The notes under the pieces are model-generated. The model saw only the letters and a program-made list of their open reading frames with translations. It was not told where the DNA came from and made no database searches. 64,000 nucleotides of DNA from Apostichopus japonicus. Its lineage: Eukaryota; Echinodermata; Holothuroidea; Aspidochirotida; Stichopodidae. How positions within the stretch are numbered: position 1 is the first letter of the stretch; the number at the start of each line of letters is the position of its first letter. The translations under genes were made by a program, and so were the position numbers. The stretch spans positions 7,671,501 through 7,735,500 of the forward strand of contig NC_092568.1 in the NCBI RefSeq assembly GCF_037975245.1. The letters are read 5' to 3'. This document shows, piece after piece, positions 4,201-63,613 of the stretch.

Positions 4201-6164
4201 ATGTTAAAGTAATTAAACTATTGAAGCATGACGCAATGATGTTATTGGTTTCAGTGTCAACACTGGTATCATTCTGCTTTATGCTGAATTGTCAAACAAA
4301 AAGCAAGAACAAGGTTTCAGATCGTATTAGCACCGTGACATCACAGATTAACCATTTCGAATCATTGTAAACGCTTTTCTGAAAGTTAGCTTCTTTATCT
4401 ATCCCAATCCTTTACCAGTAAATCGATTTTCAGTATTATGTACTGGGAAACGGCACAGATGAGTCTTGTCCTTTAAACAACAAGTTTGGTGGTCAACATG
4501 TTTTGAATGTGGATGGAGTCAGTTGATAGAAGGTTAACTCCATAACAAATCCTTTTCCGTTTCAAACTTATAAAAGTCGGAAACATTGAAGTAACTAAAT
4601 GGGTATAACAGGTAGGTCTAGCAATATCCCAGTATGCTTTTAACATGGTAACTGAGGTAAATTCAGGTCACGTGGCATGTATAATTATAGTGCAAACAAA
4701 GTGTCAAAAAGTTTTCCAAAACGGATTGACCAATTTTGCTTAATCTTGTTTAGAAGTTTACCCGTGCATGGTGGAAACTTGTGTCTATTCACGAAGGGTG
4801 TTTGCTATGAGCTACACAACTCCATGGATTGTCCTCTTGTGTACTTTATATCAAAGTCCTATATACATTTCTATGTAATAAATGGAAGCATGCATAAGGA
4901 GACATACTTTATTCTTGTTCAAGCCACACTTATTTAATCTACTCTATTACATAGTTTGGAATAATCACTGAATTAGCCTGTAAACAACATGCACATGAAT
5001 ATTTTGTTATACGTCCATTTTTCACAAGAGATAGAGGGGGGGGGGGGGGTTATTTTTAAATATTCTTGCTGGGAGCAACACCTCATGGTCTTCGATCGAT
5101 AAGAATTTTAGTCTCACTGTAGACATACAGATTAGACTAGATATAAGAGATAGAAGGAATGTGTGTTACCAATAACAACTGATGGTAAATCATATTTGTT
5201 TCCTCATATTTGTTCCCTTGTTATGTTACAGGTCTTCCAGAGACGTTTAGACGGTACCATTAACTTCTATCGTTCGTGGTCCTACTATCAAAGTGGGTTC
5301 GGGAACCTAAATACAGAATTCTGGCTTGGAAATGACAACATACACTATCTTACTTCCCAGAGAGACTACGAGCTGAGGGTTGATATGAACAACACTTTAG
5401 GAAACCATTACTTTGCCAAGTACAACAAATTCAGAATTGGCGACTCATTCTCCGAGTACCGTTTAGTACTTGGAGCGTATTCGGGTACAGCAGGTAAACT
5501 ATAAACACACATATAGTTAAGGTTTTTCTGTATATTTGATTGCATCACGGTTCAGTATATACAGGGAAACAATAACCATGCCCATAGTATCATGCATGGC
5601 GTAACTCATGATGGAGTTCCTGTTGTTTAAGGAAAGCGATGTGTTGTTAAAAAAGTGATACTTTCGAGCTGTTATGTTAAATGCGCATTTATAAGAAGCT
5701 TATTCCCATAAATATACGAACCGATTATAGAACATGTGTTTGTTTCCACGAAGCTATCTTTCAGCTACATTGTTAGCTGAGGATTGATGTGAATATCTCC
5801 TAAGGACATGATATCTTTTGTAATCATTGTTTACTACATAATATTTCAACGAACAGGCAAAATGGAAGTTTATAAATTGATCGAGTGTCTTTTCGAATGA
5901 TTACATACAGGTGATGCTCTCACTTTCCAGGACACGATGAGGTTTTCCACGTACGATAATGACAATGACGTTTATTCCAGCAACTGTGCGAGTCATTCAT
6001 TATACGGAAGTGGAGCGTGGTGGTATAAGGATTGTCACTTATCTAATCTAAACGGTCAGTACTACGGTTACAGTACATTCTCCAGTATTTACTGGCACCA
6101 ACTGCCTGGTAATAATGAACAAATTCCTTTTGCTGAGATGAAGCTTCGTCCTCGTTCAATTTAA
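1223..6164 (+). CDS. FReD gene 1: secreted fibrinogen-domain protein, 5 coding exons
   Basis: Coding exons are 1223-1306, 2960-3008, 3536-3744, 5232-5493 and 5911-6164; phases fit and give 285 residues. Exon 1 is a hydrophobic signal peptide (MKAAILLILVGCISFC start). An in-frame ATG at 1208 adds five residues, but I chose 1223 because only that ATG is shared with gene 3. Exon 2 ends in a basic RKKR furin-like site, predicting a cleaved propeptide. Exons 3-5 form a full FReD: PRDC and VYCDMET cysteines, EGGWT/VFQRR across the exon 3/4 junction, WLGNDNIHYLTSQ, an NNT glycosylation sequon, the calcium-loop region TYDNDND...NCAS, AWWY and the terminal EMKLRPRS. Family knowledge: such proteins are extracellular lectin-like molecules binding acetylated sugars; that role is inferred here. 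Exon 3 has Gly and Ser where the other copies have two Cys. Candidate polyadenylation signals lie near 6,986. Confidence 0.9.
5755..5815 (+). pseudogene. Exon-4 relic inside last intron of FReD gene 1
   Basis: Within the exon 4-exon 5 intron, a roughly 50-base stretch resembles the part of exon 4 encoding the DYELRVDMNN region: GCTGAGGATTGATGTGAATA here against the exon 4 stretch around 5,372-5,392. It is followed at once by a TAA. This copy is the most degraded of the four; the equivalents in the other units are clearer. Confidence 0.55.
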
Positions 6165-20000: not shown

Positions 20001-22101
20001 CGGTGGCAAATCTCAACAATTTAGAAGCATTGAAAACGTTTTTCTGAATGTTAGCTCCTTTATCTGTCCAAATCCTTTACAAGGGAAGTCGAGTTTCACT
20101 ATTTTGTACTGGGAAACGGCACAGATGAGTTTTTCCCTTGAAACACGAAGTTCGGCCGTCAGCAGTCTTTGAATGTGGATAGGGTCAGATCATTGGAAAG
20201 TTTAAATCCTTAACAAATCCTTTACTGTTTAAAGCTCATAAAAATCGGAAACATTTAAGTAACTAAATGAGTATAACAGGAATATCCAAATATGTATTTA
20301 CGATGGTAACTGACGTAAAATTCAGGGGTTTAAAGTGAATAATTCACACATTGAATAACACTCATAATTTCATCTCGTTCAAGCCACACGTAGTTAATTT
20401 ATTCTATTACATATTTTGGAACTATCACTGTATTACCTATCAGCAACATGAAAATAAATAGCTTTATTTATATCTGCATATATTTTCTCAAAGAGAGAAG
20501 GGCTGTGTACGTAGGTCAGATATTAATGTTCCTACTGGAAGCAACACTTCATATACTTCGTTTGATAAGATGTTAAGCCTGACTGTAAAAATACAGATTT
20601 ATATTAGATATAAGAGATAGAAGGAATGTGTGTTACCAATAACAACTCATGGTTATATTGATCATATTTGTTCCCTTGTTATGATACAGGTCTTTCAGAG
20701 ACGAATAGACGGTACCATTAACTTCTATCGTCCGTGGTCCTACTATCAAACTGGGTTTGGGAACCTAAATACAGAGTTCTGGCTTGGCAATGACAACATT
20801 CACTACCTTACTTCCCAGGGAGACTACGAGCTGAGGGTTGATATGAACAACACCTTAGGGAACCATTACTACGCCAAATACAACAAATTCAGAATTGGCG
20901 ACTCATTCTCCGAGTACCTTTTAGTACTTGGAGCGTACTCGGGTACAGCAGGTACAATATAAACATACGTATTTAAGGTGTGTCTGTATATTTGATTACT
21001 TCACATTGCATATGACGGTTCAGTATACACAGGGACAAAATAAACATGCACCGTGCATGGACTAAATCGTGATGGAGTTGGGATGATCTAAGTCAGGTAG
21101 TTTCACATCCTCGCTATCGCGTTTTACAACCGATCGTTCATTGTCTAAGTACTGAGACTAACTATACACATTTTAGGATGAAATTTATTGATCAGAATTA
21201 TGGTGATAATGAAATTGCATAAATTAAATTATTTGATTATACATTTACACAGGTACAGAAAAAGGCGCCTAGAAACATACACGCTCGATAAGCACACATT
21301 CGATTGATCAATCGACGTAGGTTACTGCGCTTGTTGCGTCGATACAATTGCAAACAAATAACTGTTCAAGGACCTTTCCACTAGATACTTAACTTCTGAA
21401 TGTAAATCTATCACGTCGCTATTCCGTTAGATACGACATATTGTCTCCATATTAGAAATATAAGTCAGTGTGGTATAGGGAGACGATAGAGTCCTGTTGT
21501 TCAAAGTCAAGGAAAACGTTGTGTTCGTTAAAATAGTGAAATTTTCGAGCTGTGATAGTCTAATGCGCAATTATAACAAGCTTATTCCCATAAATATACA
21601 AAGCAACCTACTCTATTTAAAGCGTTTTCCGATTAAAGAACAAGTGTTTGCTTCCACGGAACTATTTTTCAGGTAGACTATGAGCTGAGGATTCATTTGA
21701 ACAACTCCTAAGGACATGTTTTTTTGTTGTTGGAATCATTGCTTTACTTGAGAACTAAATATTTTTTAACCAACAGGCAAAATGGAAGTATATTAATTGA
21801 TCGAAAAAACAATTAATTTGATTTTCTTTCCGAATGAATACATACAGGTGATTCCCTAGGTTACCATAACACCAGGCGGTTTTCTACGTACGATAATGAC
21901 AATGACGCTTATTCCGGCAACTGTGCGAGTCATTCATCATACGGCAGAGGAGCGTGGTGGTATGGATATTGTCACCATTCTAATCTAAACGGTCAGTACT
22001 ACGGTTATAGTGGAAATCCCAGTATTTACTGGCGCAATCTGCCTGGTGATGCTGACCAAATTCCTTTTGCCGAGATGAAGCTTCGTCCTCGTTCAATTTA
22101 A
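16763..22101 (+). CDS. FReD gene 3: secreted fibrinogen-domain protein, 5 coding exons
   Basis: Coding exons are 16763-16846, 18277-18334, 18879-19087, 20690-20951 and 21848-22101; all join in phase to give 288 residues. Exon 1 encodes the signal peptide (MKAGILLILVGCISFC start); no upstream in-frame ATG exists here, which fixes the start. Exon 2 (FEREERSLADPAG, then RQKR) is three codons longer than in gene 1 and ends in a furin-like site. FReD landmarks are complete: PRDC, VYCDMETDEGGWT, VFQRR, WLGNDNIHYLTSQ, the NNT sequon, TYDNDNDAYSGNCAS, AWWYGYC and EMKLRPRS. Two extra Cys (LSCPKG and QSCSGQ) are present in exon 3. Intron 1 is shortened around a TA/TG tract compared with genes 1 and 4. 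Exon 4's donor is GTACAA, weaker than in its paralogues. A candidate AATAAA lies at 22,874-22,879. Function inferred as for gene 1. Confidence 0.92.
16981..17053. repeat. (TA)n/(TG)n microsatellite in intron 1 of FReD gene 3
   Basis: TA dinucleotides pass into TG dinucleotides. The tract sits where several hundred bases present in intron 1 of genes 1 and 4 (e.g. about 1,440-1,740 and 25,900-26,200) are missing. Confidence 0.9.
21664..21720 (+). pseudogene. Exon-4 relic inside last intron of FReD gene 3
   Basis: The stretch after TTTTTCAG (GTAGACTATGAGCTGAGG...) reads VDYELRIHLNNS then TAA. It keeps an acceptor-like pyrimidine run plus CAG and matches the DYELRVDMNN part of exon 4. Same position and same terminating TAA as in the other units. 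Confidence 0.65.
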
Positions 22102-34659: not shown

Positions 34660-37455
34660 AGTGGTAATTTTTATTAAGGAACGAGTTAAAATTGGGCAAT
34701 ACTATTCTGGAAGATTGCAGAAAGAAAAGTCGAATAACGTTCAACAAAAATACTCGAAATTAAAAAACAGAAATAAAAGGAAGGTCGAAATCGTCTCATT
34801 CTGTATGGAAAGAAATCAAGATAAGAATGCAGAAATTTTGAAAACATGTTAAGATTTCAGGAATTAAGAAAAGGGTACTCTTTCAACCTTTCGACAGGGG
34901 TTCTTAATCTTCCTCCTCAAGAAAGAAAAACACAGGAAAGTGGCGTCCAATTTATCTACTAGGTATTTTTGATAAATTACTTTCAAACTGTATTGCAAAG
35001 AGGTTGAAGAATGTTTTTTGTACGATAATTCATGAAAATCAAAAACGATTCTTATATGGGAGATTTATAGGGGAGCATATTCCATTATTTTAGGATTTTC
35101 TACTGTATACGGATATAGAACATATCCCTGGTCACTTGATTTTAGTTGATTTGAAAAAGCCTTTGATTGTATTTTAACATAATTTCATCTGGAAAGTACT
35201 TAATCATATCGGGCGAGGTAATAATGTTATCAAATGGTGTAAACTTTTGTATAACAATGCTTATTCAAGCTTAATTTTAATCGGTCATCGTTCACCTTTC
35301 TTTACTGTTCGTAGGGGTTGCCGACAAGGGGACCCTCTTTTACCCTACCTATACATTGTTTGTGTAGGAATTGCTGTTATTCATATTCGTAATAACTCTC
35401 ATATCAAAGGAATAACAATTAATAATTGTCACTTTAAGCTAATTCAGTATGCAGATGACACTGCATTCATTACAAATGGGAGATGTTCTTCTATGGCCAA
35501 TATTTTGAACTCCTTAAAACTTTTCAACCTCTTATCAAGAGTTAAGATCAATTATGATAAGACGTCCGTATTTTCTATCGGGTCAAATAGTTCCGAGAAG
35601 GTAGGAAATGATGAATTTTAGTTTCTCACCTGGGATCTCGGAGGAAAGTTCTCTTGATTTATTCACTTGACTTGAATGAAATGGTTGATTTAAACTATTC
35701 TAGAGTGATTGAGTTAATTCATGAGATTGTTGGCTATATTGGTCTAAACGGAGACTTATAGTCCTTGGAAAGATTACTTCTATTAAAACCTTTGCATTAC
35801 CGAACTTTATTCACCTTTTGCTCACCATTCCCAATCCACCCTTTCATGTTGTCACCCTGAAAATATGGAAAAGCATTCTACTCCTTTATATTGAATGGGT
35901 GTGACCGGATACAGCATAAGCAACTTTTCTTACCCTATAAGATTGGGGGTCTAAAAATGATTGACTTACATAGCTTTATCCATTCACTTAAACTAACTTG
36001 GTTAAGGAGATTTTTAAAAACATCGTCTATGTCTCCTATGTATGTGTGTTTTTATTATTTGTTTAAATAGCAAAGTAGCTTCTCTGTATGAAAGTGGAAA
36101 AAATTGTAGTATAGTAAGATTTTTTTTCTAGAGGGACATGTTGAAAGCTCTCATCAGACTAACAGATTCCTTAAAACCTTATCTTGTTGAATATCCCAGT
36201 TCCAATCACTTTTATGGAAAAATGACATTATACAAGTTGATAAAAAACCATTTCATTTAAGTTATTGGGTGAAATATCGGTATATACATAATTGATGATT
36301 TCTTAGATATTGATAATATTTTTCTCTCATATTGTAATATTGTGACGAGCCCGGCTCCTCCGATAGTAAAACTATATCGGGACTCGCGATAGAAAGGTAC
36401 TGGGATATCTTGATGCCGTATTTATGCTTCTTCAGGAGATGTCTCGAACGGAAGAAAACAATGAGTTCACAGAAAAACAATTTGACGAGATAGGATTTGA
36501 TTTAATGATTCGGTATAATTTCTTCTCTGTCGATTCTCTTTACAAATAAAACTAAATTACAATGATTTGACTTGACTTGACTTGACTCCGTCAATTAAGC
36601 AATTAGAAGGAGTGATGAAATGGTGACGAAGCAATGACGAAGCGACGAACTGATCACGGAGCGCTGACGGAGTGATAAATTTGCTGACCAAGTGATAAAC
36701 TTTCGGCCCCATGCCCTTTTATACGTTACTTCTATAAAATCCCTCTGCGCATAATCAGTAGGCAGCCAATAACCTGACCATCCTGTATTAACTTAACGAT
36801 ATAAAGATAAGTGCGCTGGCACTGATCTGCCCTGATTGGTTGGGAGTTTGGAAGTCCATCCCCTTTCTATGGAAACTTCCATACCACGTGAGAGAACCTT
36901 CTCGAATGTTCCACAGACATAATGGGATCTATTTTGGGAAAAGGCCCTGTACCAAGATTCAATAAGATAGTTAAAAAACTTCTCGTGGGAAAACTGAATC
37001 CATGACCTAGATAAATACATAAGAGGCCTGTAAGGTGTCTCGATGGAGTGTTTCGGTAACATCAAAGAGATGGTATCACTATTTCATAACAATATGATAA
37101 ATTTGTTTCCCTAGATACGATTAAGTCAAACTATTTGCAGTATCAAGTAGTTTTAAGGGCACTTAAACTTTACTACAATGACCAGGGTTGCATTAAAATT
37201 GATATGCCATTTATTCCTGAAATGTATGCTATCTTCTTTAAAAGTGTTAAGGGGATCGGATTTCTATTATAAGATGTTAAAAATACCGAGTTTACACAGA
37301 CGTCTCAAGTTCATTGGGCAAACGAACTTTCCATAGCAGACCTTAACTGGGAACGTATATATAAACTTCCGTTTTCACTATCTTTGGAATTCAAGTATGT
37401 TTGGTTCCAGTACAGAATTAACAGTAGAATCTTATCTACAAATCAAAACCATAAA
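34660..37455 (+). mobile_element. Degraded LINE (L1/Tx1-like reverse transcriptase), interrupted
   Basis: Broken reading frames in sequence along the + strand match non-LTR retrotransposon ORF2 parts. A lysine-rich pre-RT segment spans about 34,665-34,850. RT begins with WRP and CIAKRLKN (34,940-35,020), then continues with GRFIGEH, the GCRQGDPL motif (35,318-35,341) and the catalytic YADD box (35,447-35,458). The conserved post-RT piece GGLKMIDLHSF lies at about 35,945-35,980 and the C-terminal part with YKLPF and WFQYRINSRIL at 37,360-37,435. Stops and frameshifts occur throughout, so it is dead. A 751-bp insertion splits it at 36,340. The clade is assigned by motif style only. Confidence 0.8.
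36341..37091. mobile_element. Probable solo LTR inserted in the LINE
   Basis: The block begins TGTGACGAGCCCGG and ends CATAACA (TG...CA), is flanked on both sides by ATAT (36,337-36,340 and 37,092-37,095), and separates two parts of one LINE reading frame. It holds an AATAAA near 36,546 and no protein-coding domain. These fit a solo LTR with a 4-bp target duplication. Short degenerate repeats of TGACGAAG/TGACGGAG type occur at 36,600-36,700, and a GACTT repeat precedes them. Confidence 0.5.
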
Positions 37456-41525: not shown

Positions 41526-42419
41526 GCACTAGCGTATTTTTCTCCATTTGCCGCCCAGCGCCCGCTGGAGATTTTTTTTTTTTAAATATCATTATTTGTC
41601 GAACTTACCAATGTTATATTAAATGTAATATTTTTGGTTTTAAAATCATAAGAACACATTTACCCAACGTCAAATAAAAGTATCTTTGCAAACCGCCTCG
41701 AAATCATTGGCAAATCCATAAATGAAAGTGTGCCCCTTACTGTGAAGAACAATGTAAATTTGTATGTACGTGCATACAGCGATATGATTTTTGGTCATAA
41801 CTTCCGGGTTGCCATTTTCTTTTCGTTCGATCGGCGGCAGTCAAAGACTTAATCCCATCCCCAACATATATACGTCATTTGATAGAGAATGGAATTGTCT
41901 TTCAACAGTAGTATGGTCTAAGATAGGTTCCTATGTATTTTACATATTTTTTACATTTTAAACTTTCATTTGTTGTTTACAGGTAGGTATAAATAAGAAT
42001 TTTACAAGCCATATATTTTATTGCTTTTATTTGCTTTATTTGATATTCAAATGATTTTTCTTTCTTAAAACAACACTGAGCTGCCGCCCCTACTTTTAGT
42101 AAAAAGGTCCGTTTTTGATGATTAAGCCCCGCCTCCAAGTCTGGTTTGTAGCAGATTGGCTATGACTCATGGCAGCTACATGTTGGATATACGAAAATGG
42201 CTACCCTCGCGACCAATTTTCTGTACTGTTGACCGGTGTGAAGTTAGATACTTATTCCCCGTTCCTCGTTCGACATTCGCGAATGAGTAACTGCTACCTA
42301 TTCAGTTACGTATTCGACAATGGTCGACGTATCACCTCTGGCATGACGAAAGCTTTCTTACAAGATGTTCAACATTTGGTCGTGGTAAGAGGTTTATCTA
42401 TGGGTCATATACTCTAATG

Positions 42420-45180
42420 AATATTTAGAAGGGTACCATAATGCATCTTTTCCGGCCCGAATAGCTCTTGACCAACTAAAATGACCACCACTTCATCAGT
42501 TTCTAAATTATTGTAACGGGACCTGAAAAAATCACTCTAGGCCCTACTCAAGACTAGCACGCCTTGGACCACCTAACCAATGGGTCATAGGAATTCTTAA
42601 CACATTGTAGAAGGATACCATAATGCGGCTTGCCCGGTCCAAAGCGTGCTTGACCAATTAAAATGACCACTAAATCAACAATTTTTTAAATAAATGTAAC
42701 AGGAACTTAAATAAAAACATTTGGGCCCTAATCAAAACCAGCACGCCTTGGACCACCCAACCAATAGGTCGTATGAACTCTTAAGTCATTGTAGAAGGGT
42801 ACCATAATGCGTCTTGCCAGGTCCAAAGAGTGCTTGACCAATTTAAATGACCACTAAATCATTACTTTTTTCATGAGTGTAACAGGACCACGAAAAAGCT
42901 TTGGGCCCTAATCCATGCAGCACGCCTTGGACCACCCAACCAATGGGTCATATGAAAGCTAATGACATTGTAGAAGGGTTCCATAATGCGCCTTGCCCGG
43001 TCCAAAGAGTGCTTGACCAATTAAAATGACCACTAAATCATCACTACCTTAATGCATGTAAATGGACCTGCAAAAATCTTTAGGCACCAGTCAAGACCAG
43101 GGGCCTGTTTCACTAAACTCGACTTACGCACACAGGACTTAGTGCTGTGCGAACTCGACTTACACTAAGATGCGTCTTAGTAAAGTACTGTTTGGATCTC
43201 GGTTTCACAAAACTGTTCTCCACTAAGACGCGTCTTAACATGCTAACATTTTATTTTTGTTGACATGAACGAGGCTGTGACCTTTGACCGCGAAAAGTTT
43301 TAACAGTTCATTGCACGAACGAACTTTACAGTTGCGAGAATGGGAAAGGTAAATACCAAGTAAAATGCCTTTTATAATCACAATTTTTGGCCAAGACTTA
43401 TGTACTATTAATAGGTTGACGTCAAGTAGACGGAGAGCCTCTGAAGAAGATCCTGCTGGAACGAAGCATCAGACCAACTTACTTTTACACATTCTATTAC
43501 ACAGGCTCTTCAGTTGATAAGCAGTTTGCTAACAGTTTTGTTTCATTTTTACTTTAGCATTTAAAAAAGAAAATCAAACAAATTGTTTGATACCCATAGT
43601 AATCCCAAATTTCTTTTTCAGGCATAAGTTTCAGCAGGTGTTGGGTGAGGGTAGGGATGGGAGGTTTTGAGTGGAGGGTGGGCTTATAGCTGGGAGTTAT
43701 GGGTAGGGAAAGGTTGGAAAATTGTGGCAAGGGGCAGGTGGTTTTGAATGTGGAGACATATCTTTATGTATATTTTCAAAGTTAAGCAGGGAGTGCACTA
43801 CTCGTTAAGCCATAAAGGTTTTTTTTAGAACACTTCCTTTCACAACTCTTTGTATTTGTTTTTATTATTATCATTACCTGAATTTTGTGATAAAACAAAT
43901 AAATACATTAGCAGGTTAAAATTGGCGCCAATGCGATCACATGACTAGAAATACACTGAGATCAGTTCCTAAGTCTCGTCCATACGAGACGTAGACTAAG
44001 TCCCGTTATGCTACTTAGTGAAGAGTGGACTAAGTCTTGTACGCGACTTAGTGATCTTTGTGAAACCGGCACTAAGTCCTATTCACTAAGATGCGTCTTA
44101 AGACCACTAAGACGCGACTTAGTGCTTTGTGAAACAGGCCCCACCACGCCTTGGACCACCCAACCAATGGGTCATAGGAAGTCCAAGGACATTGTAGAAG
44201 GGTACCATGATGCGTCTTGTCCGGTCCAAAGAGTGTTTGAGCAATTAAAATGACCACTAAATCATTACTTCTTCTATGGCTGAAACGGGACCACGAAAAA
44301 GCTTTGGGCCCTAATCCATGCAGCACGCCTTGGACCATCCAACCAATAGGTCATATGAACGCTAATGACATTGTAGAAGGGTTCCATAATGCGCTTTGCC
44401 CGTTCCAAAGAGTGCTTGAGCAATTAAACTGACCACTAAATCAACACTACCTTAATGTATGTAAATGGACCTGCAAAAATCTTTAGGCCCCAGTCAAGAC
44501 CAGCACGCCTTGGACCACCTAACCAATGGGTCATAGGAATTCCAAGGACGTTGTAGAAGGGTACCATAATGCGTCTTGCCCGGTCCAAAGAGTGCTTGAC
44601 CAATTTAAATGACCACAAAATAATTACTTCTTCAGTGACTGAAATGGGACCACGAAAAAGCTTTGGGACCTCATCCATGCAGCACGCCTTGGACCACCCA
44701 ACCAATGGGTCATATGAACGCTACTGACAATGTAGAAGGGTTCCATAATGTGTCTTGCCCGGTCCAAAGAGTGCTTGACCAATTTAAATGACCACTAAAT
44801 CATCACTGCGTTAATGTATGTAAATGGACCTGCAAAAATCTTTAGGCCCCAGTCAAGACCAGCACGCCTTGGACCACCCCAAGACCAGCACGCCTTGGAC
44901 CACCCAACCAATGGGTCATAGGAATTCCAAGGACGTTGTAGAAGGGTACCACAATGCGTCTTGCCCGGTCCAAAGAGTGCTTGACCAATTAAACTGACCA
45001 CTAAACCATCACTACGTTAATGCATGTAAATGGACCTGCAAAAGTCTTTAGGCCTCAGTCAAGACCAGCACGCCTTGGACCACCCCAAGACCAGCACGCC
45101 TTGGACCACCTAACCAATTGGTCATAGGAAGTCAAAGGACATTGTAGAAGGGTACCATAATGCGTCTTGCCCGGTCCAAA
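42420..45180. repeat. ~180-bp satellite with alternating A/B units
   Basis: Units recur with the phrase TAGAAGGGTACCATAATGCG at about 42,610, 42,793, 42,972, 44,190, 44,373, 44,555, 44,732, 44,938 and 45,143. Odd and even units differ consistently: type A has GGTACC and the AAAAAGCTTTGGGCCC end, type B has GGTTCC and the AAAAATCTTTAGGC end. This makes a dimeric ~365-bp higher-order period. A short extra duplication of CCAAGACCAGCACGCCTTGG occurs near 44,878 and 45,085. Reading frames on both strands here are repeat artefacts. Confidence 0.85.
43100..44142. mobile_element. 1,043-bp TIR element inserted in the satellite
   Basis: It starts GGGGCCTGTTTCAC and ends GTGAAACAGGCCCC, a 14-bp perfect inverted repeat with imperfect extension. 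It interrupts the satellite in the phrase CAAGACCA/CACGCC. Both ends carry many short motifs of the ACTAAGACGCGTCTTA and GACTTAGTG type in both directions, so the subterminal regions fold extensively. No transposase frame. A target duplication of ACCA is possible but not certain. Family not assigned. Confidence 0.75.
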
Positions 45181-46490
45181 GTCTTGATTAGGGCCTCAAG
45201 TGATTTTTTCAGGTCCCGTTACATTAATTTAAGAACTGATGAAGTAGTGGTCATTTTAGTTGGTCAAGAACTAGTTGGACCTTGCAAGATGCATTATGGT
45301 ACCCTTCTTCATAGTCATTAGAGTTCATATGACCCATGGGCCATAGATAAACCTCTTTCCACGACCAAATGTTGAACATCTTGTTAGAAAGCTTTTGTCT
45401 TGCCAGAGGTGTTACGTCGATACCATTGTCGAATACGTAACTGAATAGATAACTCAGTTACTCATTCGCGAATGTCGAACGAGGAACGGGGAATAAGTAT
45501 CTAACTTCACACCGGTGTACTGTTGTTAGATACTACCACTGATCTACACTAACTAGATAGGCCGCGCGGCTCCGTGTGTGAAGCGGCCGGACGTGACTCA
45601 GCGGCCATGTTGGGATATTCAAAACATCACCGCGCACATACAGTGCATACGTTGCTATGTCGGTCGGTGGCCGAGAAGGTGATGCAAAGAGAGGCCAAGG
45701 AAGGAAAGTGAATGTCGCAGAAACAATCCTTATTTTTCAAGGAAGTGAAGTTGAACATTTGAACTCTAGAGGAATATTTGTTATGCCAGACTAAAATGTC
45801 AAATATGCCTATTTTCCGTGCAGGAAAAGATATGGAATGGGTCGTCTGTACAGAGACAGACGCTGCAAGTTGAATGCAATACAAAGTCTATGGGATACGT
45901 CGGACTAGGAACTTGAGAGGCATCCCTTCCTCAATGGTTAGGGACTTTTAATTTCAAGAAAAATGTTAAGTATTTCTTCTAAATTCACTTCAAATTGGGG
46001 GAAAGAATTTCATAACTGGACGAGGCTACACCATCCATGCACAAACTATATGTAGGCTACCGGTATCTAGTATTGGGAAGGGCAAATATTAAATTTTTAG
46101 GTAGCTCGCAGGGTTACAAAAATTTAGTTTATTTCCATCTAGAAACTAAAAATGGAAGTTCCATGATAAATAAAAAAAATTAGGAGGGAAAAATTCCATG
46201 TGTTCTCAGGAAAACCTTGTCGTATAGGGTTTGTGCATGAGGCTGGGGTCTTAAGGCAGTGTCCAGAAGTGGAATTCCTTTCAGAAAACCTTAGTGTCCA
46301 ATTTGGGGATATGGAATTAACACAATCATCTACGGGTCATTATTTTTGTACATGTATTAATTTTTTTAAAGTAAATGCAGACAAACAACTCTTTATAGTT
46401 CATATGCACAGTCTGTTATATCTTTGCTGCAACAGCAATTTATTTAGCAGTTCTCAACAATTTCCAGTTAAAATCTTTATATTCGAATAT

Positions 46491-47589: not shown

Positions 47590-49630
47590 TTGAGAACAGA
47601 TGATGCTATTGCTGCTGAGACACCAAGACCTTGTGGAAGTTTTCCATCAGAAATGTTGGCAAGTCTTTGGAAACACTTTCTGTTTCCATGCACACACTGT
47701 GATGTAGCAGGTTTTGTGAATCGAAGCTTTTATGTGGATGATGGTCTCCAATCTGTTGATACAGTTAATAGAGCTGTAGACCTCATTTCTCGAACGAAAC
47801 AAATGCTACATAAAGGGCGGCGTTAACTTCACCAAAATTAAGTGTAATTCCAATTCTGTGTTGCGATCAATTCCTGAGGAAGATCTTGCGGTTGCTTCTG
47901 GGCATTTAGATCTCTCCTCAAATGCAACTCATTTGGATCGGGTTCTTGGAGTACAATGGTGTATTGAATCAGATAGATTTCAATTTAAGATAACACTTAG
48001 TGATAGCCCTTTGACACGGCGTGGTATCCTTTCTACGATTGCTTCGGTGTATGACCCGTTTGGGTTTATAACTCCAGTTGTGCTTCCAGGAAAGCAAATC
48101 TTACAGCAATTATGTTATGATCATTTACATTAGGATAGAACCTTGCCAGATGAGCTACACAGTAAGTGGGAAAAGTGGAGGATGGGTTTATCTGAGTTAG
48201 AAACCATCAGAATTGATAAGTGTTTTAAGCCTGTTGAACTTGGCACCGTTACAAAGCGAACTGCATCATTTCTGTGATGCTAGCACCATTGGGTATGGTT
48301 ACTGTTCTTACCCGCGCATGATTAATCGTGAAGGTAAAGTTCATTGTAGATTCGTTTTTGGAAAGTCTAGGGTTGTTCCCCGTAGGCCTGTTACAGTACC
48401 ACGCCTAGAGCTGACTGCAGCTGTATTGTCGGTAAAGATCAGTGCCTTGTTGAAACAAGAGTTGGAGTACAATTTTATCAATGAATATTTCTGGTCTGAT
48501 AGTCAGGGAGTCCTTGGGTATATCAATAATGATGTCAATTAAGGACATCAAGCTGGTTTAGAGGGCCAGAGATGTTATGGGAAAGTCAACTCCCACTGGT
48601 TAAGCACGTTACAAGCCTTGAGGTCTTTGACCATGACCCAGAGGTTAAATGTTGCCAGGTAGCATTTTCCAGTGTCAAATGCTCTAATCATCTGGAAGCA
48701 GATCGTTTAAGCTCCCTTTCGATTTGTTTTAAAGCAAGGAAAGCTATTGCATTATGCCTTTGGCTAAAGGCTATGCTTTAGGCTAAGGCTAGTAAAGCCC
48801 TCCTTCCGGTTAGGGAGCTTAATGTAGATTCTTTGTTTGAAGCCGAGATTGAAATACTGCGAATAGTTCAGTCCTTTGCATTTCAGGAAGAGCTTCAAAT
48901 CCTTCGGACATTGAGTAGTGATCCAGTACAATGCTTAAAGAAAGGCAGTCCACTCTATGCTCTAGATCCTTTTTTGGATGAAAATGGTGTTATTCGGGTT
49001 GGTGGTCGTATATCTAAATCTAGCTTCGAATTTAAAGTGAAGCATTCTGTAATTATTCCTAAGTTATGCCATGTTGCAGAGCTCCTTGTGAGACATTTTC
49101 ATGAGTTAGTTGCCCACCGAGGTAGAGTTTTAACTTCAAACGAAATTAGGGCAAATGGTTATTGGATCATTGGTGGTAGTTTTTTAATTGGTAAAGTGAT
49201 ATACAAATGTGTTACTTGTAGACGGCTTCGTGGTAGTTTGGGTCAACAGAAAATGTCAGACTTACCGGTTGATCGAGTGGAGTCTAGTCCACCCTTTACA
49301 TATTGTGATGTAGATTGTTTTGGTCCCTGGCTTGTAAAGGAAGGTCGTAAGGAGTTAAAGAGGTATGGCGTGTAATTTACGTGTATGGCCTCAGGGGCGG
49401 TACACCTAGAAGTAGCTAATTCATTAACCATCGACTATTTTTTGAATGCACTACGACGCTTTCAAGCTATACGTGGCCCTGTAAGACAATTGCGTTGTGA
49501 TCAGGGCACTAATTTCGTAGGGGCAAATAACGAATTGTTAGCTGCATTAAAGGAAATAAATCAAGGTGTTGTAAGTAAAAGGTTGCTAGAGCTGGGTTTT
49601 GATTATATTGAATTTAAGTTTGCCACGACC
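47590..49630 (+). pseudogene. BEL/Pao pol remnant: RT, RNase H, integrase
   Basis: Frames in order along the + strand carry, first, an RT C-terminal part with the catalytic FYVDDG box at about 47,728-47,746. A frameshift follows near 47,818 and a stop near 48,131 in the place of a Trp. RNase H shows CDAST (about 48,274), RLELTAA (about 48,404) and SDSQ (about 48,497). Linker, zinc-binding (HFHELVAH and CVTC) and integrase parts span 48,830-49,620, with aspartates in DVDCFGPW and RCDQGTNFVG. A TAA at about 49,372 breaks the integrase, and the third catalytic acidic residue is beyond the deletion. It is inactive. The upstream RT core is not recognisable. Confidence 0.85.
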
Positions 49631-62800: not shown

Positions 62801-63613
62801 TAACTTAATCATGTGCCGAAAGTTGGTGATTTTAGGATATAAAACTGACTACGTTTTTAATTTGTCAGCTGAACACTTATGCACTGGGACGAGATGAGAG
62901 ATTCTGGGACGAGCCAGAAGTATTCAATCCAGAAAGATTCAGAGAAAAAAATAGCAGGTATGAATGAATGAATGAATAAGTGAGTGAATTAGTGAATAAA
63001 GGAAGACACGAGTGAGTGAATCAATGAATCAATTTTAATGAATTCACGGACGGACGGACGGACGGACGGACGGACGGACGGACGGACGGACGGACGGACG
63101 GACGGACGGACGGACGGACGGACGAAAAATACATTTTTTTCAATTCATTTTTCTTTTAAATTATCTTTCCTGAGAGGAAAATTGCATGCTTTACGGTAGA
63201 AATAGCACATGTCCTTCTCTATGAGTTGGAAAAATCCAGAATAATATTTAAAAAGTGCAATACTGCGACACTTACATCTGAGATAACATGCTAAGCAACT
63301 GAAACTCCGGTTTTGTTGAACAGATTACTACGTTTATGGTATTTGCAATTGATAACAATTCACTTTGTAGTATCACTTCATCTATTTGATGAAAATCACA
63401 AGTTTAGAATGTCGAATAAACGTCTTAATTTTGGATCTTTTGCATATCACTTTATTATAAACTTTCACAAAATATTGTCTTTATAATCCGATTTACTTTT
63501 TGCCCATATTTATGCTGCGGTCTTTTGCCTTTTCTTCAAATAATAGACATATGTACGCCTACTTTCCGTTTAGCTTGGGACCGAGGGTATGCATTGGACA
63601 ACAATTCGCATTG
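51173..63613 (+). CDS. CYP46A1-like: Cytochrome P450, cholesterol 24-hydroxylase-like (3' end outside window)
   Basis: Twelve exons: 51173-51306, 56006-56083, 56240-56291, 56982-57142, 57478-57616, 58081-58200, 58446-58680, 59269-59341, 60287-60371, 62239-62349, 62869-62957, 63547-63613 (448 codons). The last 45-50 residues of a usual ~500-residue protein lie past the window. Exon 1 gives an N-terminal membrane anchor (FKFLFLACVLITLLFVASFL) as in microsomal P450s. Motifs: FLGHAVD (exon 2), QWAKQRKMMNPAF helix C (exon 4), I-helix AGQETT across exons 7/8, EVIGSK (exon 9), ExxR in KEVLR (exon 10), NPERF (exon 11) and haem loop FSLGPRVCIG with the Cys ligand (exon 12). The motifs and their order fit CYP46A (sterol 24-hydroxylation, ER membrane); substrate is inferred. 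The codon spanning exons 2/3 (residue 71) is TG+A, a stop where Trp is expected, so this allele may be broken. Confidence 0.85.
52840..53340 (+). pseudogene. Possible decayed coding fragment in P450 intron 1
   Basis: The frame at about 52,848-52,925 reads LFPKVGPRIKFMRNLEALK, which resembles the end of a SAM-like domain. It is followed by stops and then a very acidic stretch near 53,190-53,330. No complete gene can be built. It may be part of a retroelement or gene fragment; weak. Confidence 0.25.
54056..54170. repeat. Two-copy direct repeat in P450 intron 1
   Basis: ATTAAAGGACA...TTTTAATTCTTATGATGTAATG at about 54,057 recurs in diverged form at about 54,122. No further copies seen. Confidence 0.5.
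54711..54980. repeat. Cluster of ACACAAC/GTTGTGT palindromes (MITE-like)
   Basis: At least eight ACACAA and TTGTGT blocks alternate here, several as near-perfect palindromes such as ACACAACTGTTGTGT and ACACAACAGTTGTGT. The outer parts GTTGTGTACATTACACTAAT and ATTAGTGCACTAGTTACACA are imperfect inverted repeats, so the whole may be a foldback MITE. Target duplication not identified. Confidence 0.6.
55281..55345. repeat. Interrupted (TA)n tract in P450 intron 1
   Basis: TA dinucleotides interrupted by ACATACATATAAA pieces. A minus-strand frame over it is a repeat artefact. Confidence 0.85.
58741..58828. repeat. (ATT)n microsatellite, tail of the adjacent LINE
   Basis: Nearly pure ATT repeats with a few ATC/ACT variants. 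It directly abuts the 3' end of the minus-strand LINE fragment and probably began as the short-repeat tail that such LINEs carry. Confidence 0.9.
58829..59195 (-). mobile_element. 3' end of a CR1/L2-like LINE in P450 intron 7
   Basis: Read on the minus strand from about 59,150, the sequence encodes YGDRQFNFAASKLWNALPN and then a piece with FKKLLKTHFF. This is the style of the C-terminus of CR1/L2-type LINE reverse-transcriptase proteins. It is followed by a short UTR ending in a hairpin (58,842-58,879; arms AGCGCTCTT/AAGAGCGCT around CATGCTTAAGCATG), ATATAAA and the ATT tail. It is 5' truncated and has at least one stop. Clade assigned from motif style. Confidence 0.7.
59809..59851. repeat. 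(AT)n microsatellite in P450 intron 8
   Basis: About 21 uninterrupted AT dinucleotides. Confidence 0.95.
60791..61279 (+). repeat. MITE-like element in P450 intron 9
   Basis: Ends are inverted repeats: CGATACTCATAGCTGGTAC at 60,791-60,809 and GTATCAGCTATGAGTATCG at 61,261-61,279 (one mismatch), continuing with weaker inverted similarity. Internal GTTACAGGTGGCACTGTAAC is itself nearly palindromic. A related copy lies in the opposite orientation at 49,694-50,118. CTTTACA occurs near both ends and may be a target duplication. Confidence 0.65.
63047..63124. repeat. (GGAC)n tetranucleotide microsatellite in P450 intron 11
   Basis: About 19 uninterrupted CGGA units. Just upstream (62,958-63,035) is a degenerate GAAT/GAGT tetranucleotide run that starts immediately at the exon 11 donor site. 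Confidence 0.95.

Follow-up and report, generated by a model that had tools for sequence, protein, structure and literature searches.

Tetris of Drosophila virilis (PMC4079207) is the closest described element to the one reported here, and the two are set side by side by description. Tetris is built from a flank domain, ~220-bp tandem units in variable number and a non-coding middle of variable size. It makes target duplications of 8-10 bp, no autonomous copy is reported for it, and its authors suggest Mutator. Two alleles one unit apart in number were described there, and contigs composed of the unit alone were reported.

The element analysed here lies in a window of 64,000 nucleotides, by which we mean the whole stretch of DNA under study. 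To judge from the description of Tetris (PMC4079207), it shares with that element the domain plan, the size class of the duplications (8-10 bp in Tetris, 9-10 bp here), the homology between unit and flank, and the existence of copies differing in unit number. The two differ in extent: unit and flank of Tetris share 37 bp, whereas here nearly the whole 179-bp unit is homologous to the inner arm (about 80%), and up to 20 unit matches, with inner arm and partial units included, occur on one side of an element. A first reading of this DNA from its sequence alone (the sequence-only reading) recognised no described family; the type is nevertheless a described one, since the domain plan and the 8-10 bp duplication are already those of Tetris. 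Our literature search for a described family, with repeat databases such as Repbase outside its scope, gave Tetris as the nearest one. The present family adds a Tetris-type foldback element with a satellite in its arms, probably in an invertebrate other than Drosophila.

Three other systems show partial resemblance. Galileo (PMC3573991, PMC3688188) also has long, internally repetitive inverted ends with arms unequal in unit number, chimeric copies without matching duplications, and deletion derivatives; it differs by its 7-bp duplication (9-10 bp here) and its P-type transposase with a THAP domain. Tm1, a Mutator/Foldback element of root-knot nematodes (PMC3169594), is similar in its composite inverted ends, its variable number of tandem units, its mostly 9-bp duplications and its members without transposase, but its units are 13-15 bp long and some members carry a transposase. 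The MULE-related Rehavkus (PMC6446971) has a 9-bp duplication, inverted ends of 26-400 bp and a minisatellite within the element; in contrast to the present family, where no coding part was seen, it is described as coding, with a PHD finger, and its minisatellite is placed only before the 3' end.

Results

Anatomy of the element in the window

The window element (42232-45516) has inverted ends and ~180-bp tandem units inside, and its anatomy can be read directly (Table 1). The left arm extends from 42232 to ~42555 and the right arm from 45516 back to ~45180; the sequence-only reading gave ends of about 323 and 336 bp. The foldback element with long inverted arms and a perfect 9-bp duplication that it had proposed was confirmed, the duplication GTACTGTTG being exact on both sides. 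The two arms agree fully over their outer 61 bp and are 89-91% alike as a whole. The inner ~150 bp of either arm is a diverged unit, as had been noticed earlier; the array may have arisen from the arm, as the sequence-only reading proposed, or the arm from the array. Beyond the inner unit of the left arm there are nine unit matches, two of them partial and all in + orientation; two of the unit spacings measure 206 bp, caused by a 26-bp duplication.

Table 1. Positions (in the window) of the parts of the foldback element and of the insertion nested in it.
Feature	Position	Strand	Basis
Target site duplication, left copy, GTACTGTTG	42223..42231		exact match to 45517-45525
Flank domain of left arm, alpha type, starting ACCGGTGTGAAGTTAGATAC	42232..42410	+	genome search and alpha/beta typing
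Left arm, inner part: diverged 179-bp unit	42411..42590	+	profile match, 77% to unit consensus
Tandem units; the third (from 42959) is broken by the nested insertion	42596..43099	+	unit matches
Nested insertion, 1,043 bp, outside the foldback family	43100..44142		14-bp inverted terminus GGGGCCTGTTTCAC, ACCA either side
Rest of the tandem units; the final unit ends at unit position 60	44143..45186	+	unit matches
Right arm, inner unit	45173..45324	-	unit matches
Flank domain of right arm, beta-leaning type	45325..45516	-	arm comparison/typing
Target site duplication, right copy, GTACTGTTG	45517..45525		exact match to 42223-42231

The earlier description of the interior as ~180-bp tandem repeats holds for these nine matches, but not for 43100-44142, which is a nested element and not satellite. 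A 114-bp relative of the nested element, 86% similar, is found at L024 9500-9611 (the same place as L002 2524-2635).

The + array of the window meets the right arm at about 45173-45187. Judged from the other copies, this junction would be the scar left by a lost core and right array; it can also be read as a 2-bp microhomology. The window copy would be a deletion derivative, a point that the sequence-only reading had missed along with the nested insertion: of the 17 copies analysed below, 13 have both a core and an opposite array, and this one has neither.

Copies across the genome and their target duplications

In the genome searched (671.6 Mb, 35 contigs) the left arm of the window element matched 39 other places with E values of 2.5e-123 or better (40 of 475 candidates scored). 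A search with only the 179-bp flank domain scored 40 of 309 candidates; all 40 matched, and they were distributed over 17 of the 35 contigs. Seventeen copies with both ends were analysed, a biased sample, since they were drawn from the best-scored matches to the window arm; the ends L027, L029 and L036, whose partners were not in the stretch read, are left out of the two-ended counts.

Exact duplications of 9-10 bp flank ten of the seventeen copies: 9 bp in eight (the window copy, L017_18, L020, L021, L024, L031, L030x and L032x, the last two judged by eye from flanking sequence) and 10 bp in two (L025, L034). Chance is no issue here, because the arms are hundreds of base pairs long, 39 other strong matches exist and the duplications are exact in 10/17 copies. 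The target duplications and the dispersed copies together demonstrate that the family is mobile. The copies combine tandem repeats inside long inverted ends of variable length with target-duplicating mobility, both of them traits of foldback (FB-like) transposons. The remaining seven copies (L019, L026, L028, L033, L035, L022a, L022b) have no matching duplication, and recombination fits this.

Two of these seven are arranged head to head at C16:5141500-5158900 (L022+L023), in the order CGTGATTTC, element, GAAATCACG, element, GTGATTTC. The spacer GAAATCACG between L022a and L022b is the reverse complement of the 9-bp CGTGATTTC, and the outer ends have 8 bp in common; such a layout would result if a second element inserted into the duplication of the first and the touching arms then mediated an inversion. 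At L032 8392-8434 a stray 43-bp family end immediately adjoins, on the outer side, the 9-bp duplication that flanks a complete copy.

Linkage of arms and arrays

Arms and units co-occur in all 17 two-ended copies, so that ends and satellite belong together in the copies read, as the sequence-only reading had assumed; the independence of the two, which it had named as its refutation, was not seen there. Long element-free arrays are reported for Tetris (PMC4079207). In our unit search 30 of the first 40 matches (of 296) lay in or beside a family copy; the other ten are not among the places read for arms. The search scored 40 of 439 candidates with an arm-adjacent unit as query, which favours linked arrays, so that element-free arrays, and with them the seeding of arrays elsewhere that the sequence-only reading suggested, may exist in this family. 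Two further array starts taken from it (L048, L049) were both found to have an arm, and at C20:28609059-28612100 the array spans no less than 3 kb.

Core and coding capacity

The plan arm, array, core, inverted array, arm was found in 13 of the 17 copies, with 1,992 to 4,732 bp of core between the innermost unit matches. The core is absent from the window copy, L033, L034 and L035, and the junctions of L034 and L035 hold other material. At least two core subtypes exist: compared with L017_18, the cores of one group are ~90-97% similar and those of the other ~79-89%.

Among 14 stretches between arrays, one of which (L033, 495 bp) is array and not core, 13 contained no frame of at least 120 codons, and L020 has a single one of 122 aa. 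A Pfam scan of the six frames of two cores (L026, L030) gave no family above the cut-off and one weak match with E 0.79. A coding core is not supported by these 14 stretches or by the scan of the two cores. A core piece of ~1 kb is situated ~3 kb from a MULE domain at C7:11249700-11260700 (L047+L046); neither arm nor unit was found in the 11 kb read there, and the piece is taken as an independent fragment.

Behaviour of the 179-bp unit arrays

Each side of the 13 core-bearing copies has 3 to 20 unit matches, a count that includes the inner arm and partial units, and in 12 of these copies the two sides are unequal in unit number. An edge-to-middle gradient is directly visible in the 34 arrays of the 17 complete copies (22 of the 299 unit matches were too partial for scoring): mean similarity to the unit consensus is 80% for the inner arm (33 of the 34 arrays), 85% for the first unit (30 arrays), 93% for the second (30 arrays) and 91-94% at further array positions where at least four units were compared. 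The core-edge units are mostly truncated or diverged. Interior units are alike to 0.912 within an array (698 pairs), to the same 0.912 when the two arrays of an element are compared (435 pairs) and to 0.891 between elements (13,232 pairs). Homogenisation array by array is therefore not visible on average, within-array likeness being equal to that between arrays. Some arrays are very uniform, such as the left array of L032 with 0.98 in its compared part.

The most informative pair of copies is L030x and L032x, which are 96.4% alike over 8.5 kb and stand at different sites with different duplications (ACTTTAGTG and GACTTGCTG, respectively). On one side they contain 17 and 20 unit matches; there, two core-edge and five arm-edge units have one-to-one partners at 98-100%. 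Between them lies the homogeneous middle block, with 10 and 13 units, a directly observed difference of three. On the other side both copies have 11 unit matches, and the interior units are without simple pairing order. Diverged edges, a more uniform middle and this three-unit difference display steps of array growth inside a transposon, and the transposon origin of satellites would become testable by comparing individuals of one species.

The conserved blocks GTACCATAATGC.TCTT, CTTGACCAA.T.AAATGACCA, GGCCCTAATC and CAGCACGCCTTGGACCACC are present in the consensus of inner-arm, first, interior and penultimate units. The unit also contains a 14-bp inverted repeat, GGTCCAAAGCGTGC / GCACGCCTTGGACC, with one mismatch, which, to judge from the sequence, would give direct homology between opposite arrays. 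The putative core-loss scars of the window copy and L033 are situated within about 10 bp of this repeat; only these two + to - junctions are clear, and both were assessed by eye. We attribute no structural role to a hairpin in the unit: one window unit, as single-stranded DNA, folds no better than shuffles (z -0.84).

Arm types and their reassortment

Two arm types could be distinguished among the 34 arms, four of which (L021_5, L028_5 and both L034 arms) are left out of the following figures. The 19 alpha arms are on average 96.3% alike and the 11 beta arms 95.5%, and alpha and beta arms are 90.9% alike. In L030x, L032x, L022a and L022b the arm 5' of the core is alpha and the one 3' of it is beta; the arms are beta-alpha in L024, L025, L026 and L028, and alpha-alpha in L017_18, L019, L020 and L021. 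L031 has the core-edge markers of L030x, L032x and L022b, but its alpha and beta arms are exchanged. These combinations demonstrate directly that arm types have been reassorted relative to the core. Crossing-over between the inverted arrays, flipping the core, would explain the exchanged arms; alternatively, copies may have exchanged arms with one another, without an inversion inside any one of them.

Search for a transposase

The MULE domain matched 38 places in the genome. At 11 of these 38 places the sequence was inspected together with 1.5 to about 7 kb on each side, and neither the arm nor ends of the ACCGGTGTGAAG type were found there. At C17:19936300-19944300 (L044 155-7522) a frame of 503 aa, containing a MULE domain and a FLYWCH match below the cut-off, sits between inverted 17-bp minisatellite arrays of about 55 and 31 copies; no match to the foldback arm was seen in this sequence. 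With this locus, the genome has at least one MULE gene with foldback-like flanks, possibly a coding foldback MULE. L021 contains an insertion of several hundred bp in common with sequence beside the MULE of L010/L037. The target duplication of the family (9 bp in 8/17 copies, 10 bp in 2/17) falls within the 8-11 bp of the Mutator/MULE superfamily, and a MULE origin of the family is likely.

Discussion

We interpret the family as a foldback DNA transposon, non-autonomous and of the Tetris / FB kind, that is moved by a transposase made elsewhere, most likely one of Mutator/MULE type, and assign to this interpretation a probability of about 0.85. A transposase supplied from elsewhere, presumably a MULE, would cut at ACCGGTGTGAAG... 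and paste the element with a 9-10 bp duplication. Each arm begins with a ~180-bp flank domain, followed by a diverged first unit and then by a row of 179-bp units, which may offer the transposase additional binding sites. Mid-array units would be gained and lost by unequal exchange or slippage, while the edge units stay; exchange between the inverted arrays could flip the core, and deletions between them may lead to short copies such as that of the window. Cores would be lost rather than gained.

Transposons and satellites often adjoin in animal genomes, and ends and satellite might be independent repeats joined once, when one was inserted in the other. The ten unit matches outside the places read for arms could be counted for such an origin. 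It is nevertheless very improbable, since arms and units stand together in every two-ended copy and at both further array starts, the inner arm is itself a unit, and the duplications are found outside the arms and not at the array edges. A segmental inverted duplication of a satellite-bearing region, with no transposon involved, could produce long inverted arms by itself, and L022a/L022b illustrate that two elements can stand head to head with an inverted 9-bp spacer; against it, dispersed copies share the same ends and have different 9-10 bp duplications, and we consider its chance negligible.

More weight has to be given to another superfamily, with the family being a foldback-like member of P/Galileo or Merlin type instead of a MULE. 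Galileo, a member of the P superfamily, likewise combines long, internally repetitive arms with chimeric copies (PMC3573991), and no transposase with the present ends was found among the 11 of 38 MULE places read. The duplication of Galileo is however 7 bp in that description and 9-10 bp here, and MULE transposase genes do occur in this genome, at L044 flanked by inverted minisatellite arrays. We regard such an assignment as rather unlikely, though it is the strongest competitor of the Mutator/MULE-driven foldback transposon.

A more far-reaching idea, which at present we hold to be speculative and improbable as a whole, goes beyond the non-autonomous foldback transposon itself: a mobile satellite, a single lineage whose 179-bp arrays turn over, travel with it to new sites and serve to flip its core, and which repeatedly sheds free arrays. 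If this were true, a single genome could document the whole series that leads from a lone diverged unit to a long array.

Other features were also recorded in the window. Positions 5154-5501 and 20621-20959 are similar stretches, both with a match to the fibrinogen C-terminal domain, and probably represent a local gene duplication. Pieces of a Pao-type retrotransposon peptidase domain are situated at 47780-48539 and a reverse transcriptase piece at 35178-35618. The fibrinogen-domain and Pao matches would point to an invertebrate host. A perfect ACGG tetranucleotide array of about 20 copies extends from 63046 to 63124.
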